From Actinomycetota bacterium (GTDB lineage: Bacteria > Actinomycetota > Acidimicrobiia > Acidimicrobiales > Acidimicrobilacustridaceae), in the NCBI GenBank assembly GCA_016185305.1, contig JACPNV010000016.1, positions 58,211-93,571 on the forward strand: a stretch of 35,361 bases of DNA, in the 5' to 3' direction. Under the pieces are notes generated by a model. The model saw nothing but the letters and a program-made list of their open reading frames with translations. It was not told the DNA's origin and ran no database searches. How positions within the stretch are numbered: the stretch's first letter is position 1; each line of letters opens with the position of its first letter. Positions 2,848-33,673 of the stretch are shown in pieces. Position numbers and translations under genes: made by a program.

Positions 2848-4044
2848 CTACAGCCGGTCGACGATCGCCGACGCGAACTCTGAGCACTTGACCTCGGTGG
2901 CGCCGTCCATCAAGCGGGCGAAGTCGTAGGTCACGATCTTGTCGGCGATCGTCTTCTCCATCGCGCTGACGATGCTGGCGGCGGCCTCGTTCCAGCCGAG
3001 GTGCTCGAACATCAGCACGCCGCTCAGCAGCACCGAGCCCGGATTGACCTTGTCCTGGCCGGCATACTTCGGCGCGGTGCCGTGGGTCGCTTCGAAGATG
3101 CCGTGGCCGGTCACGTAGTTGATGTTGCCGCCCGGAGCGATGCCGATGCCGCCGACCTGCGCGGCCAGCGCGTCACTCAGGTAGTCGCCGTTGAGGTTCA
3201 TCGTGGCGATGACGTCGAACTCCGCGGGACGGGTGAGCACTTGTTGCAGCGTGATGTCGGCGATGGCGTCCTTCACGAGGATCTTGTCGCCCGGGTCGCC
3301 GCCACAGTCGTCCCACCCGACGGCGACGTCGCTGAACTCCTCGCGCACGAGCTCATAGCCCCAGTTGCGGAAGGCGCCCTCGGTGAACTTCATGATGTTG
3401 CCCTTGTGCACCAGCGTGAGGCTCTTGCGGCCGTGCTTCACGGCGTAGTCTAGGGCGGCGCGCTGCAGCCGTTGCGAGCCGGTCTTGGACACGGGCTTGA
3501 TGCCGATGCCGCTGTCTTCGCGGATGCTCCACCCGAACGAGTCGTGCAGCAGCTCGATGAGCTTGCTCGCTTCGGGCGTGCCGCTCTCGACCTCGAGGCC
3601 GGCATAGATGTCTTCGGTGTTCTCGCGGAAGATCACCATGTCGACCAGCTCGGGCCGCTTCACCGGCGACGGCACGCCGTTGAACCAGCGCACCGGGCGC
3701 AGGCAGACGTACAGATCGAGGATCTGGCGGAGGGCGACGTTGAGGCTGCGGAACCCGCCGCCGATCGGCGTGGTGAGCGGGCCCTTGATGCCGATGAGGT
3801 AGTTCTGGAAGGTGTCGACCGTTTCCTGCGGGAGCCACTCGCCCGTCTCGTTGAAGGCCTTCTCGCCCGCCAACACCTCTTTCCACTCGATCGTCTTGGC
3901 GACCTTGGTGGCCGCGGCGTCGAGCACCAGCTTCGCCGCCGGCCAGATGTCGACCCCCGTGCCATCCCCCTCGATGAACGGGATGATCGGGTTGTCAGAG
4001 ACGTTCAGCGTGTGGTCTTCGTTCAGGGTGATCTTGTCGGCCAT
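2848..4044 (-). CDS. icd: Isocitrate dehydrogenase, NADP-dependent, homodimeric
   Basis: Converts isocitrate to 2-oxoglutarate and CO2 with NADP+ in the TCA cycle. The protein has 398 residues and is of the E. coli Icd type (416 in E. coli). The substrate-binding serine lies in [12 protein letters not shown] (Ser100, matching E. coli Ser113, the residue phosphorylated by AceK there). [22 protein letters not shown] follows in shorter conserved pieces, with [11 protein letters not shown] and [15 protein letters not shown]. The cofactor loop [18 protein letters not shown] keeps the Lys-Tyr pair that favours NADP. The start is ATG 4044, without a Shine-Dalgarno sequence; a promoter-like TTGTCT-17-TAGGGT ends 7 nt upstream, so the mRNA may be nearly leaderless. 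No frame breaks. Confidence 0.97.
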
Positions 4045-4051
4045 GCCGGCG

Positions 4052-4081
4052 ACCCTAGCGGCAAGACAAGTTCAAGACAAG
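4052..4081 (-). promoter_or_regulatory. Predicted icd promoter with duplicated CTTGTCTTG motif
   Basis: On the minus strand a -35-like TTGTCT (4080-4075), a 17-nt spacer and a -10-like TAGGGT (4057-4052) end 7 nt before the icd ATG. The nonamer CTTGTCTTG occurs twice in direct repeat (4081-4073 and 4070-4062), spaced 11 bp centre to centre, about one helical turn. That could be an operator overlapping the -35. The promoter assignment is inference from consensus; the repeats are directly visible. Confidence 0.5.
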
Positions 4082-4104
4082 TGTCGCCGCCGCGACCATC
4101 CGGC

Positions 4105-4142
4105 GGAAGATCGCGCACCTCCCAGGTGCAGGATCTTCCGTG
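4105..4142. repeat. 38-bp hairpin repeat, copy 1
   Basis: Near-perfect palindrome. Outer arms are GGAAGATC (4105-4112) and GATCTTCC (4132-4139); inner arms are GCACCT (4115-4120) and AGGTGC (4124-4129); a 2x2 internal bulge and a 3-nt loop (CCC) complete it. It matches copy 2 at 5146-5183 over 38 bp with one difference, which falls in the loop. The copies lie in direct orientation on either side of the DUF559 gene. Copy 1 sits between the divergent icd and DUF559 genes, where a terminator is not needed. Confidence 0.85.
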
Positions 4143-4239
4143 CTTGTCACAGGGCATCGGCATGATGGCGAGGACGGGGAACGCGGCCCTCCCGGGCTCG
4201 CGGACCGCCACGAACCCTCGAGCGAACGGTGTTGCAGCG

Positions 4240-5184
4240 ATGGACGACGATCTCGATGTCCGGGTGGCCAGACTGGCGCGGGCGCAACACGGTGCCTTCA
4301 CCCGGCGAAGCGTGCTCGAGCAGGGTGGTTCTGATCGGCAGATCGCCCATCGGCTTGACCGCCAACTCTGGCTTCCGACGGCTGATCCCGGGCGATACGT
4401 GCTCGCATCGAGCAGGCCGACGGCCGAGCGAACCTGGATGCTGGCCTCGTTCACGCACCCCGCAGCCGTCGTGTCCGGCAGGTCCGCCGCGCAGCTTCTC
4501 GGTATACGCGATGTTCGGGCCGAGCGACCCGAGATCACTGTTCCCGCTGGAGCACGATGTACGAGCAATCTGGCAATCGTTCGCCGATCGAAACTCATCC
4601 ATGCGACGAGGCGCCGAGGGATCCCCGTCATGCGCATCGAGCAGACGATCATCGACCTCGCCCGCCGGCTGAGCGAGGCCGACCTGTTCACCCTCACCGA
4701 TGACGCCATCGCGGCAAACGTCCTGGCGGCCGAACGACTCGCCGGTCGCTATGCCGTGGTGGCCCGATCACGCCCTGCGGGGTTGGCCAAGGTGCGAAGG
4801 TTGCTGGACGCGTTCGGCGACGGTTACGTGCCGCCGGCCTCCGAACTGGAACGGCTGCTCTACGCCACACTCGACTGGCCCGGCATGCCACCGTACGAAC
4901 GTCAGGCGTCGGCACCGTGGCGGTCACCGAAGGACGAACGCGTGGACGCGCTGATCCCGTCGAGCAACCTCATCATCGAGGCCGACGGTCGCCGCTGGCA
5001 CACGCGGGTGCGCGACTTCGACAACGACCGCCGGCGCGACAACGCGGCCGCCGCGCACGGGTACCTCGTGCAGCGGTACGGGTGGGAGATGCTTCGCCAC
5101 GAGCCGGACGACGTAGCCCGCTCAATCCTCGCGGCAACATCGCACGGAAGATCGCGCACCTACCAGGTGCAGGATCTTCCGTGA
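4240..5184 (+). CDS. DUF559 (Vsr-like) endonuclease-domain protein with AbiEi-type N-terminus
   Basis: A 314-residue soluble protein. Residues 5-55 resemble the AbiEi-antitoxin N-terminal winged helix (ARAQHGAFTRRSVLEQGGS ... GRYVLAS). Residues 200-295 form a DUF559 / very-short-patch-repair-like PD-(D/E)XK domain: Glu203 in SELERL, Asp236 in RVDALIP, and Glu247/Asp249 in LIIEADGRRWH. Such genes are common orphans in actinomycetes; function is unproven (nuclease, or antitoxin-like repressor). ATG 4240 begins the recognisable domain; the frame stays open far upstream, but that part is antisense to icd. The last 13 residues (HGRSRTYQVQDLP) are encoded by hairpin copy 2 and look added onto a natural end near LAAT. 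Copy 1 lies in the same frame upstream. Convergent with metF. Confidence 0.8.
   Translation: MDDDLDVRVARLARAQHGAFTRRSVLEQGGSDRQIAHRLDRQLWLPTADPGRYVLASSRPTAERTWMLASFTHPAAVVSGRSAAQLLGIRDVRAERPEITVPAGARCTSNLAIVRRSKLIHATRRRGIPVMRIEQTIIDLARRLSEADLFTLTDDAIAANVLAAERLAGRYAVVARSRPAGLAKVRRLLDAFGDGYVPPASELERLLYATLDWPGMPPYERQASAPWRSPKDERVDALIPSSNLIIEADGRRWHTRVRDFDNDRRRDNAAAAHGYLVQRYGWEMLRHEPDDVARSILAATSHGRSRTYQVQDLP
5146..5183. repeat. 38-bp hairpin repeat, copy 2 (overlaps DUF559 3' end)
   Basis: Same palindrome as copy 1, with loop ACC instead of CCC. Arms GGAAGATC (5146-5153)/GATCTTCC (5173-5180) and GCACCT (5156-5161)/AGGTGC (5165-5170). It covers the last codons and most of the stop codon (5182-5184) of the DUF559 gene and lies 23 bp from the metF stop, so it could also act as a bidirectional terminator for these convergent genes. 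Confidence 0.85.
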
Positions 5185-5205
5185 GATCTTCCCGACCGGA
5201 CCAGA

Positions 5206-6066
5206 TCAGGACGACAGGCCGAGGTTGGCGTAGATCTCGCGCGTGGCCGGCGAGCGGTTGAGCGTGTAGAAGTGCAAGCCGGGCGCGCCATGGTCGAGAA
5301 GCTCTTGACTGAGCTCGGTGGCGACGGCGATGCCGACCTTGCGCACCTCGTCGGGCTCGTCGGCGACCGCGTAGATGCGCTCAGCAAGCCACGCCGGGAA
5401 CTCGGCGCCCGCCATCGCCGCGAAGCGCTGGATCTGCTTCGCGTTGGTCACCGGCATGATGCCGGGCAACACCGGCTTGTCGCACCCCAGCGCCGCCAGC
5501 TCGTCGACCATGCGCAGGTAGTGCTGCGCCTCGAAGAAGAACTGGGTGATGCCGAAGTCGGTCGCGTTCAGCTTGGCGGCGAGGTGGTGACGGTCGTGAG
5601 CCCGGTCGCCGTTGGAGCGGGGGTGGAGCTCGGGATGTGCAGCGACGCCGATCGAGAAGTCGCCCACCGACTTCACCAGCTCGACGAGATCGAGCGCGTA
5701 CTCCAGCTCGTGCGGGTACTCGTCGAGATCGGTCGGCGGGTCACCCGCGAGGGCGAGGATGTTCTCGATGCCGGCGTCGCGGTACTCCTCGAGCAGCGAC
5801 GCCAACTGGTCGCGGGTGTGGGCGATGCACGTCAGGTGGGCCATCGCCGTGATGCCCGTGTCGCGCTGGATGTGGATCACGATGTCGCGGGTGCGGTCGC
5901 GAGTCGAGCCGCCCGCGCCGTAGGTCACCGACACGAACGATGGGCCGAGCGGTTGCAGCTCGCTGATGGTCTTCTCCAGCGCGCGCGCCGCCTCGTCGGT
6001 CTTCGGCGGGAAGAACTCGAAGGAGAACGTTCGCCCCTCGGCCAGCTCGTCTCTGATCTTGCTCAT
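5206..6066 (-). CDS. metF: 5,10-methylenetetrahydrofolate reductase
   Basis: Reduces 5,10-methylene-THF to 5-methyl-THF, the methyl donor for methionine synthesis; a flavoprotein with a TIM-barrel fold. The 286-residue product has the family start MSKIRDELAEGRTFSFEFFPPKT, whose FEFFPPKT carries the catalytic Glu. It also has SVTYGAGGSTRDRT, AHLTCIAHTRDQL, ILALAGDPP, GVAAHPELHPRS and the FAD-site stretch ITQFFFEAQHYLRM. ATG 6066 is preferred over an in-frame ATG 39 bases upstream because it begins the conserved N-terminus and follows GGGGGA by 8 nt. It lies 87 bp downstream of folD on the same strand, and both enzymes act on 5,10-methylene-THF. A 13-bp palindrome sits upstream of the start. 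Confidence 0.95.
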   Translation of the reverse strand: MSKIRDELAEGRTFSFEFFPPKTDEAARALEKTISELQPLGPSFVSVTYGAGGSTRDRTRDIVIHIQRDTGITAMAHLTCIAHTRDQLASLLEEYRDAGIENILALAGDPPTDLDEYPHELEYALDLVELVKSVGDFSIGVAAHPELHPRSNGDRAHDRHHLAAKLNATDFGITQFFFEAQHYLRMVDELAALGCDKPVLPGIMPVTNAKQIQRFAAMAGAEFPAWLAERIYAVADEPDEVRKVGIAVATELSQELLDHGAPGLHFYTLNRSPATREIYANLGLSS

Positions 6067-6086
6067 GCGTTGGTCCCCCGATGAAC

Positions 6087-6111
6087 CCCAACAGTTGGGT
6101 CCCAAAGCGTA
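6087..6111 (-). promoter_or_regulatory. Palindrome and -10-like box upstream of metF
   Basis: CCCAAC-A-GTTGGG is a perfect inverted repeat (6087-6099). On the minus strand it starts 6 nt after a TACGCT -10-like hexamer (6111-6106), so it would begin at the transcription start of metF and end 20 nt before the ATG. That is a typical place for a repressor site. The palindrome is seen directly; its function is inferred. Confidence 0.4.
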
Positions 6112-6153
6112 CGCGACGGGCGTGGCGCGCTCCTACCCGACCTCGATCACCAC

Positions 6154-7014
6154 TCAGCGGCCCGCGGCAAGCTCGGCGGCGTCAACCGTGTTCGCCAGCA
6201 ACATCGCACGGGTCATCGGGCCGACCCCACCGATGCGGGGCGACAACCAGCCAGCCACCTCGGCCACGTCATCGGCGACATCCGACAGCAGCTTCTTGCC
6301 GTCGAAAGAGACGCCGGCCGCGACGACGACCGCTCCGGGCGTGACCATCGCGGCGGTGATGAGCCCCGGCGAGCCGGCCGCCGAGATGAGGATGTCGGCC
6401 TGCCGCGTGTAGTTCGCGAGGTCCGCGACCCCGGTGTGCACGACGGTCACCGCGGCGTTCGCGTTGGGCCGCTTCAACGTCAAGAGGTTGGCCAGCGGGC
6501 GGCCAATGGTCAGCCCCCGCCCCACGATGACGACGTGCCGGCCAGCGATCGGGATCGCGTAGAACGCGAGCAGCGCCTGGATGCCGGCCGGCGTGCACGG
6601 CAGCGGCCCGTCCACTCCTTGCACCAGGCGGCCGAGGTTGACGGGATGGAGACCGTCGGCGTCTTTCGCGGGATCGACCTGCAAGAGCGCGGCCTCGTAG
6701 TCGAGGTGCGCGGGGAACGGGTACTGCATGAGGTAGGCGTGGACGCTCGAGTCGGCGTTGAAGTCGGCGACGACGCTCTCGACCTCGGCCTGGGTTGCGT
6801 GAGCCGGAAGGTGCACGTGCCGCGAGACCATCGACAGGGCCTCGCTGTCGCGGTGCTTCATCGCGACGTAGTTCGCCGACGGACCATCGTCACCCACGAG
6901 CAGCGTCCCCAGGCCGGGCACGACGTCTTTGCCCATGAGCACTTCGATGCGACCACGGAGGTCGTCCTTGATCCGCGAGGCCACCAGCTCTCCGTCCAAC
7001 TTCTGTGCAGCCAA
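6154..7014 (-). CDS. folD: Methylenetetrahydrofolate dehydrogenase / methenyltetrahydrofolate cyclohydrolase
   Basis: Bifunctional C1 enzyme that interconverts 5,10-methylene-THF, 5,10-methenyl-THF and 10-formyl-THF with NADP(H). The product has 286 residues, the normal family length. Recognised: LDGELVASRIKDDL at the start, NYVAMKHRDSEA with the catalytic Tyr/Lys, a DGLHPVNLGRL segment, PCTPAGIQALL, the nucleotide-binding VVIVGRGLTIGRPLANLL, and the C-terminal GGVGPMTRAMLLANT. Start: TTG 7014 is preferred because GGAGG ends 6 nt upstream and MAAQKLDG matches the family. An in-frame ATG at 7035 lies before that ribosome-binding site. It precedes metF on the same strand and supplies the formyl donor used by purN and purH nearby. 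Confidence 0.94.
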   Translation of the reverse strand: MAAQKLDGELVASRIKDDLRGRIEVLMGKDVVPGLGTLLVGDDGPSANYVAMKHRDSEALSMVSRHVHLPAHATQAEVESVVADFNADSSVHAYLMQYPFPAHLDYEAALLQVDPAKDADGLHPVNLGRLVQGVDGPLPCTPAGIQALLAFYAIPIAGRHVVIVGRGLTIGRPLANLLTLKRPNANAAVTVVHTGVADLANYTRQADILISAAGSPGLITAAMVTPGAVVVAAGVSFDGKKLLSDVADDVAEVAGWLSPRIGGVGPMTRAMLLANTVDAAELAAGR

Positions 7015-11275: not shown

Positions 11276-11303
11276 ACGGAGCCGGCCATGAGGCCGGCTC
11301 CGT
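11276..11303. terminator. Bidirectional terminator hairpin
   Basis: ACGGAGCCGGCC (11276-11287) and GGCCGGCTCCGT (11292-11303) form a perfect 12-bp GC-rich stem with an ATGA tetraloop. It lies between the convergent stops of the TIGR03085-like gene (11253) and sucD (11326). There is no U-tract, as is common in actinomycetes. Confidence 0.85.
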
Positions 11304-32318: not shown

Positions 32319-32488
32319 CAAGACGCCGGCGAAGGCGCGCCCGCCGCGCTCTCGGCGAGCTGGTGGAGGAGATCGGGAAGACCACCCATCTTCAGGTTGC
32401 TCATGACCTTGCCCGGTGTCGTCTCGCCTCGCTCCCATTCCTTCCAGAACACGAGGAGCTTGGCGGGATCGGGAGGCGGTCTGTCCAT
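32318..32488 (-). CDS. 56-aa protein coupled to NUDIX gene
   Basis: Too short for most ORF cut-offs. The product reads MDRPPPDPAKLLVFWKEWER, then GETTPGKVMSNLKMGGLPDL and LHQLAESAAGAPSPAS. The amphipathic WKEWERGE and NLKMGGLPDLLHQL segments look conserved; from memory, unchecked, similar small proteins stand before NUDIX genes in other actinomycetes. ATG 32488 has GGGGAGG about 10 nt upstream, and the TGA stop overlaps the NUDIX ATG. Its ribosome-binding site and start lie in a 53-bp tandem duplication. Confidence 0.72.
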   Translation of the reverse strand: MDRPPPDPAKLLVFWKEWERGETTPGKVMSNLKMGGLPDLLHQLAESAAGAPSPAS

Positions 32489-32591
32489 CACACTCCCGCC
32501 TCCCCGCTGGTCACCGTCGATCGTTCCTTCGAGCTCAACATCACACTCCCGCCTCCCCGCTGGTCACGGTCCATCGTTCCTTCGAGTTCGG
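32486..32591. repeat. 53-bp tandem duplication carrying an RBS and start codon
   Basis: Copies at 32486-32538 and 32539-32591 differ at only a few bases. On the minus strand each ends GGGGAGGCGGGAGTGTGATG, so the ribosome-binding site and ATG of the 56-aa gene exist twice. The spare upstream ATG opens a 17-codon frame whose TGA overlaps the true ATG. Confidence 0.9.
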
Positions 32592-33644: not shown

Positions 33645-33673
33645 ACGGCCGGCCCCGCAGAAGGGCCGGCCGT
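33645..33673. terminator. Bidirectional terminator hairpin
   Basis: ACGGCCGGCCC (33645-33655) and GGGCCGGCCGT (33663-33673) form a perfect 11-bp stem with a 7-nt loop. It lies between the convergent potassium channel (stop 33592) and groEL (stop 33763) genes. Confidence 0.85.

Follow-up and report, generated by a model that had tools for sequence, protein, structure and literature searches.

Paired hairpins bracket AbiEi-DUF559 nuclease genes in Actinobacteria, a likely counterpart of RAYT/REP systems

Bacterial genomes commonly contain repetitive extragenic palindromes (REPs), repeats whose associated enzyme is the REP-associated tyrosine transposase (RAYT). REPs have been described as lying mostly between convergent or co-directional genes, and for one class, the CGTC REPs, a dedicated transposase is reported to be apparently absent (PMC3733652). 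Here we analysed a 35,361-nucleotide stretch (the window) on contig C5 of a 3.29 Mb, 72% complete assembly of an Actinomycetota bacterium, in which a gene encoding an AbiEi-DUF559 nuclease, P0001, lies between two hairpins. Homologous genes are often bracketed by a matching pair of their own, and this link between a gene and its hairpin pair is the best-founded part of the case. We consider it likely that the window unit, a predicted DNA-binding nuclease and two hairpins, works like a RAYT/REP pair.

The initial annotation had described two near-identical hairpins around the DUF559 gene, one in a divergent gap and the other within the reading frame, adding 13 residues to a protein whose domain seemed already complete, and each of these points was confirmed. 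The hairpins are 39 bp each, differ by a single mismatch in the loop and start 1041 bp apart. On the plus strand copy 1 folds at -26.9 kcal/mol (z -6.0) and copy 2 at -28.6 kcal/mol (z -7.4), with 0/200 shuffles reaching that stability; for the minus strand, folded with more flanking sequence, z was -3.2 for copy 1 (1/200 shuffles) and -7.1 for copy 2 (0/200). Four hairpins in the window score at least 11, two of them being these copies. The other strong hairpins (11276-11303 and 33645-33673) start with ACGG, end with CCGT and are probably ordinary intergenic hairpins. Copy 1 separates icd from the divergent DUF559 gene, and copy 2 supplies, as read from the sequence, the 13 codons that precede the stop. 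The domain does not need this C-terminal tail to be complete, because the Pfam DUF559 match stops at residue 299 and at least 95% of 110 homologues have a gap in the alignment columns of the last four residues. The multiple-of-three spacing, to which significance had also been attached, is correct as a value yet carries little weight, because frame 3472-5184 is open anyway. As read from the window, neither stem is followed by a run of T and neither copy has a GTAG or CGTC tag at its base. A known RNA family was rejected, since Rfam gave no match up to E 1 across 3500-6200.

Pfam recognizes AbiEi as well as DUF559 in P0001. The N-terminal two thirds have the AbiEi fold, while the predicted nuclease domain has the homing-endonuclease/Vsr fold with conserved active-site residues E204, D236, E247, D249, H254 and D263; no Y1_Tnp (Y1/HUH tyrosine transposase) domain was matched by Pfam in the protein. 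A defence system was rejected (PADLOC matched only the AbiEi part, plus a weak DpdF match), as was a plasmid or phage gene (tblastn at 1e-5 gave no match in the plasmid or phage collection), and the strict window hairpin was absent from the viral contigs searched. Three family homologues were found in the window's own genome, on contigs C5, C22 and C46, so that none shares contig C2 with the third, diverged hairpin described below.

Matching flanks are a property of the family. In 29 of 61 genomes searched, 108 homologous places were found, and 92 of these places were taken as loci, together with one Nakamurella gene. The loci hold 95 frames, 89 of them complete and 82 with at least 200 bp on each side (6 partial and 7 short-flank frames were dropped). 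For each gene the best local alignment was computed between its own upstream and downstream flanks, 350 bp beyond the gene. At a threshold of 44, matching pairs were found for 53/82 genes, where swapped pairings predict 0.11; the 53 include the window gene and the Nakamurella gene, the latter having been found through its hairpins. A survey of the phylum found a homologue in 33/119 genomes and yielded 28 further loci with 26 testable genes, of which 11 reached 44. Repeat pairs thus occur at 64 of 108 complete family genes, the window's included (52/81 + 1/1 + 11/26). Control positions were not bracketed, neither metF genes (0/28, best score 32) nor arbitrary, overlapping intervals of 900 bp taken from the window and six further loci (0/149, best score 39). 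The repeats are mostly hairpins of 40-60 bp, private to each gene, with an ungapped palindrome on both copies in 36 of the 64 pairs and on at least one copy in 52. Orientation is direct in 39 pairs and inverted in 25, and in 31 the downstream repeat begins before the stop codon, as in the window.

We also followed hairpin copies away from these genes. The window type occurs three times in its own genome, the third copy being diverged (G000:C2:1826-1860), and in 0/395 other phylum genomes searched. A looser hairpin pattern matched two others (G025, G044) among the genomes of 61 relatives, with unlike interiors, and these were taken as chance. Among GTDB species genomes, a set possibly without the window's own, only that of Nakamurella aerolata matched the strict pattern, at three places, and one hairpin pair there surrounds a DUF559 homologue that shares 31% identity with P0001. 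A looser half-site pattern gave 129 matches in Nakamurella versus 18 for its reversed control, and 93 versus 48 in the window genome, mostly outside hairpins. N. aerolata also carries hairpins in clusters of three to five that span a few kb, with spacings of about 250-3000 bp (L113, L114, L118).

When 30 hairpins of other genes were pooled as a query against 14 genomes, matches appeared in 14/14 and, among the matches listed, each fell in its hairpin's own genome. One hairpin occupies at least 28 places in genome G002, 2 flanking its gene and at least 26 elsewhere; another occupies at least 26 places in G042, a complete chromosome, 2 of them flanking the gene. Most copies in both genomes, among the matches listed, sit away from the DUF559 gene. 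The initial annotation had counted such a distribution against a mobile unit; it is literally what these genomes have, yet it does not decide the question, because the same holds for RAYTs and REPs. We inspected 24 G002 copies, the two flanking ones among them, and 20 share the same 47 bp without a difference and have abrupt edges. The only base preferences at the edges of the 24 are T in front and A/G behind, and neither a GTAG nor a CGTC tag was seen. A rough gene call assigns 10 of the 24 to gaps between convergent genes, 6 to gaps between co-directional genes and 2 to the inside of a frame, leaving 6 undecided; among classified scattered copies, convergent or co-directional gaps hold 16/18 in G002 and 17/19 in G042. 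In these two genomes, four stretches bounded by other hairpin pairs with a separation of about 560-920 bp contained no DUF559 remnants.

Comparable arrangements were found beyond Actinobacteria. Residues of 3hrl used as query gave 40 plasmid-collection records with small DUF559 genes, 20 of which were tested, together with an E. coli locus. Paired repeats were present at 13/20 loci at 44 and 14/20 at 40, or 13/21 with the E. coli locus; the threshold of 40 is also reached by 20/380 swapped pairs (expectation about 1 in 20), since the hairpins are alike between genomes. Positives come from Alphaproteobacteria, Deinococcus and Cyanobacteria. Several of the genes lie inside operons (sufB/sufC, two transhydrogenase genes, paaD/paaZ), and three Deinococcus plasmids carry them at differing points near hpa genes. 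No unoccupied counterpart of a DUF559 site, exact to the base, emerged: among the matches listed, sufB-sufC and pntA-pntB neighbours matching both sides were just 67-77% identical, and in Azospirillum no record except the source matched both sides.

The sufB-sufC gap of Azospirillum is occupied instead by a GIY-YIG nuclease gene with dimers of CGTCATCCCCGCGAAGGCGGGGATCCAG on either side; these fit the description of CGTC REPs (PMC3733652). Eight of 34 records with a relative of this gene were tested, and seven have matching repeat pairs (L288:950-1600, L290, L291, L293-L296; not L292), against 3/56 swapped pairs; a CGTC-REP-like pattern (CGTC, stem, CCA) occurs at 3/8 loci (L288, L291, L294). 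It is possible that GIY-YIG genes are the missing partner of CGTC REPs. At one Sphingobium site, between fnrL and a response-regulator gene, seven records span the full query and four lack about 350 bp. In an alignment, one strain (L295) has hairpin-GIY-YIG-hairpin where another (L297, the one of the four that was aligned) has, as judged by eye, a lone hairpin-like copy, a difference that reflects either gain or loss.

Taken together, the data are best read as a REP-like system with a homing-type nuclease as partner. The nuclease would recognize its own hairpin, guided in Actinobacteria by the AbiEi module, and cut the DNA there; host repair would fill the break with a copy of the hairpin or of hairpin-gene-hairpin, so that cutting would drive hairpin spread. 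The homing-endonuclease fold of the nuclease domain fits this cut-and-repair account. Movement of the gene into hairpins (homing) and of hairpins away from the gene may both occur. The nuclease-driven mobile unit resembling RAYT and REPs that had been suggested for the window is thus supported as a kind, judging from gene-specific pairs at 64/108 genes. More tentatively, in a proposal that may hold but is slightly more apt to fail, there would be across phyla a class of REP-type repeats run by homing-type nucleases, Vsr-like DUF559 (with the AbiEi module in Actinobacteria) and GIY-YIG, each cutting its own hairpin and propagated together with it through host repair; the GIY-YIG proteins would then be the missing CGTC REP enzyme.

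Several results weigh against this interpretation. No pair reached the threshold in 44/108 genes, or in 15/26 of the phylum set; within the window's own genome the second homologue (L074) lacks a pair (20) and the third (L075) has one (66). Some counted pairs may be non-hairpin, L133 being GC-rich simple sequence, and L284, one of the 13 plasmid-set positives, looks like coding sequence, while the E. coli small DUF559 locus has no pair (17 and 18). The window's genome, as far as it is assembled, offers only the one further, diverged copy of its hairpin. Target-site duplications of at least 4 bases were found at the edges of 0/24 G002 copies, and 2/15 genomes, G042 and G060, do contain a Y1 transposase. 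Hairpin and protein similarity between genes are uncorrelated (Spearman -0.06, 1953 pairs), and two loci with 72% identical genes, L136 and L140, carry different hairpins (the score of L136 itself is 36); this speaks against a fixed match of protein and hairpin unless specificity changes rapidly. Co-divergence was not seen overall, though a few close pairs share an outer stem (L151/L155, L171/L180, by eye). These findings leave two possibilities: a rapid change of specificity, or a gene that inserts into any hairpin it encounters.

Entry into resident hairpins could also be the whole story, with a homing-type gene that cuts a lone hairpin and is copied between its halves, thereby duplicating the local hairpin, while another agent disperses the hairpins. 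This would account for flanking copies that match each other yet differ between close relatives, and both the Sphingobium site, albeit with a GIY-YIG gene, and the homing-endonuclease/Vsr fold agree with it. The same strain difference would, however, arise by deletion through recombination between two hairpins, the copies spread in G002 belong to the family that brackets the gene, and a separate agent is required, whereas a Y1/RAYT transposase (Y1_Tnp, PF01797) gave no match in 13/15 genomes, the window genome (G000) among them. We therefore regard movement of the gene alone as unlikely.

A larger role for such an agent, in which the DUF559 gene is a mere passenger caught between ordinary REP copies spread by an undetected transposase, seems improbable. 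Among the matches listed, copies remote from the gene predominate in G002 and G042, and G042 and G060 do have a Y1 transposase; but different DUF559 genes of one genome bear different hairpins (five in G038, compared by eye), and neither the metF genes nor the arbitrary intervals were bracketed.

The hairpins could instead be regulatory, as bidirectional terminators or operators of an AbiEi-like autorepressor, their similarity upheld by selection. Copy 2 adjoins a convergent gene, the N-terminus of P0001 has the AbiEi fold and the classified scattered copies favour convergent or co-directional gaps. Set against this are the divergent location of copy 1, the absence of a T run after either stem and the dozens of near-identical scattered copies, which such a function leaves unexplained, and we give it little credence. 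Finally, the initial annotation's own alternative, a dispersed hairpin family that flanks the gene by chance, was right about scattering, which occurs in the same genomes, but chance flanking is very unlikely because of the pair counts, the expectation from swapped pairings and the empty controls given above.

At the icd-metF locus itself (Table 1), the gene appears to be a newcomer, as far as four relatives show: of 29 relatives with the metF locus, these four (G005, G006, G010, G050) have icd on the same stretch, and the DUF559 gene is present in the gap in 0/4. Absence from orthologous gaps, which had been proposed as a check, was thus found, and vertical conservation at the locus was not seen. 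The metF-icd gap measures 1161 bp in the window versus 137 bp in G006 and 156 bp in G010; it is 995 bp in G005 and 597 bp in G050, where a different, lipoprotein-like frame is present (by eye; loci L045, L053). In G001, of the same genus, metF is followed by a different gene, so that the insertion is not datable within the genus. A ACTTGTCTTGAACTTGTCT-like direct repeat lies upstream of icd on the minus strand (4060-4086) and also precedes icd in G005, G006 and G010 (by eye); it looks like a conserved operator. Elsewhere, the window contains a 53-bp tandem duplication, 91% identical (32486-32591).

Table 1. Coordinates of the nuclease gene, the hairpins and the flanking host genes in the window.
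Feature	Position	Strand	Description
AbiEi-DUF559 nuclease gene P0001	4240..5184	+	314 aa; ATG 4240 (best start) to stop 5184
P0001 residues 1-198	4240..4833	+	AbiEi-like module with N-terminal winged helix (predicted DNA binding)
P0001 residues 199-305	4834..5154	+	DUF559/Vsr-type nuclease domain
Hairpin copy 1	4104..4142		divergent gap, icd / DUF559 gene
Hairpin copy 2	5145..5183		overlaps 3' end of DUF559 gene, beside convergent metF
icd	2848..4044	-	host gene flanking the unit
metF	5206..6105	-	host gene on the opposite flank

Among the open-licence PMC papers listed by the searches, judged from titles and the openings of abstracts, none was found on DUF559, AbiEi or GIY-YIG genes with such hairpins or REPs. 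If DUF559 and GIY-YIG proteins are REP partners, many genes of 'unknown function' would gain a testable role, and a nuclease-based route would open for repeat spread, a role so far credited to an unrelated transposase; the protein and hairpin target pairs are ready-made for biochemistry.

Compared with described systems, the G002 copies differ from a DDE-type insertion sequence or miniature inverted-repeat transposable element in showing no target-site duplication of at least 4 bases. The window unit shares the AbiEi fold with AbiE toxin-antitoxin systems but has no adjacent AbiEii nucleotidyltransferase toxin, its neighbours being icd and metF. The catalytic fold of P0001 is one known from homing nucleases; in the Vsr-type homing endonuclease I-Bth0305I (PDB 3r3p) the chain is named a mobile intron protein, whereas here the gene is free-standing, AbiEi-fused and hairpin-bracketed. 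The likeness to CGTC REPs, as described in PMC3733652, lies in REP-like hairpins that are often dimers, and repeats fitting that description bracket GIY-YIG genes at three loci, although the actinobacterial DUF559 hairpins seen differ in sequence. With RAYTs and GTAG REPs (REPtrons) the unit and its relatives have in common that hairpin repeats flank the gene. Numerous lone copies away from the gene, another REPtron trait, are present in G002, G042 and Nakamurella, against one diverged copy in the window's own genome, and the classified copies of G002 and G042 lie, as REPs do (PMC3733652), mostly between convergent or co-directional genes. The enzyme, in contrast, is a DUF559/Vsr-type nuclease fused to AbiEi and not a Y1 tyrosine transposase, many hairpins are 40-60 bp long, and neither the window pair nor the G002 copies carry a GTAG tag. 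On present evidence the window unit, lacking Y1 domain and GTAG tag, is not a RAYT/REPtron, though it is arranged like one.
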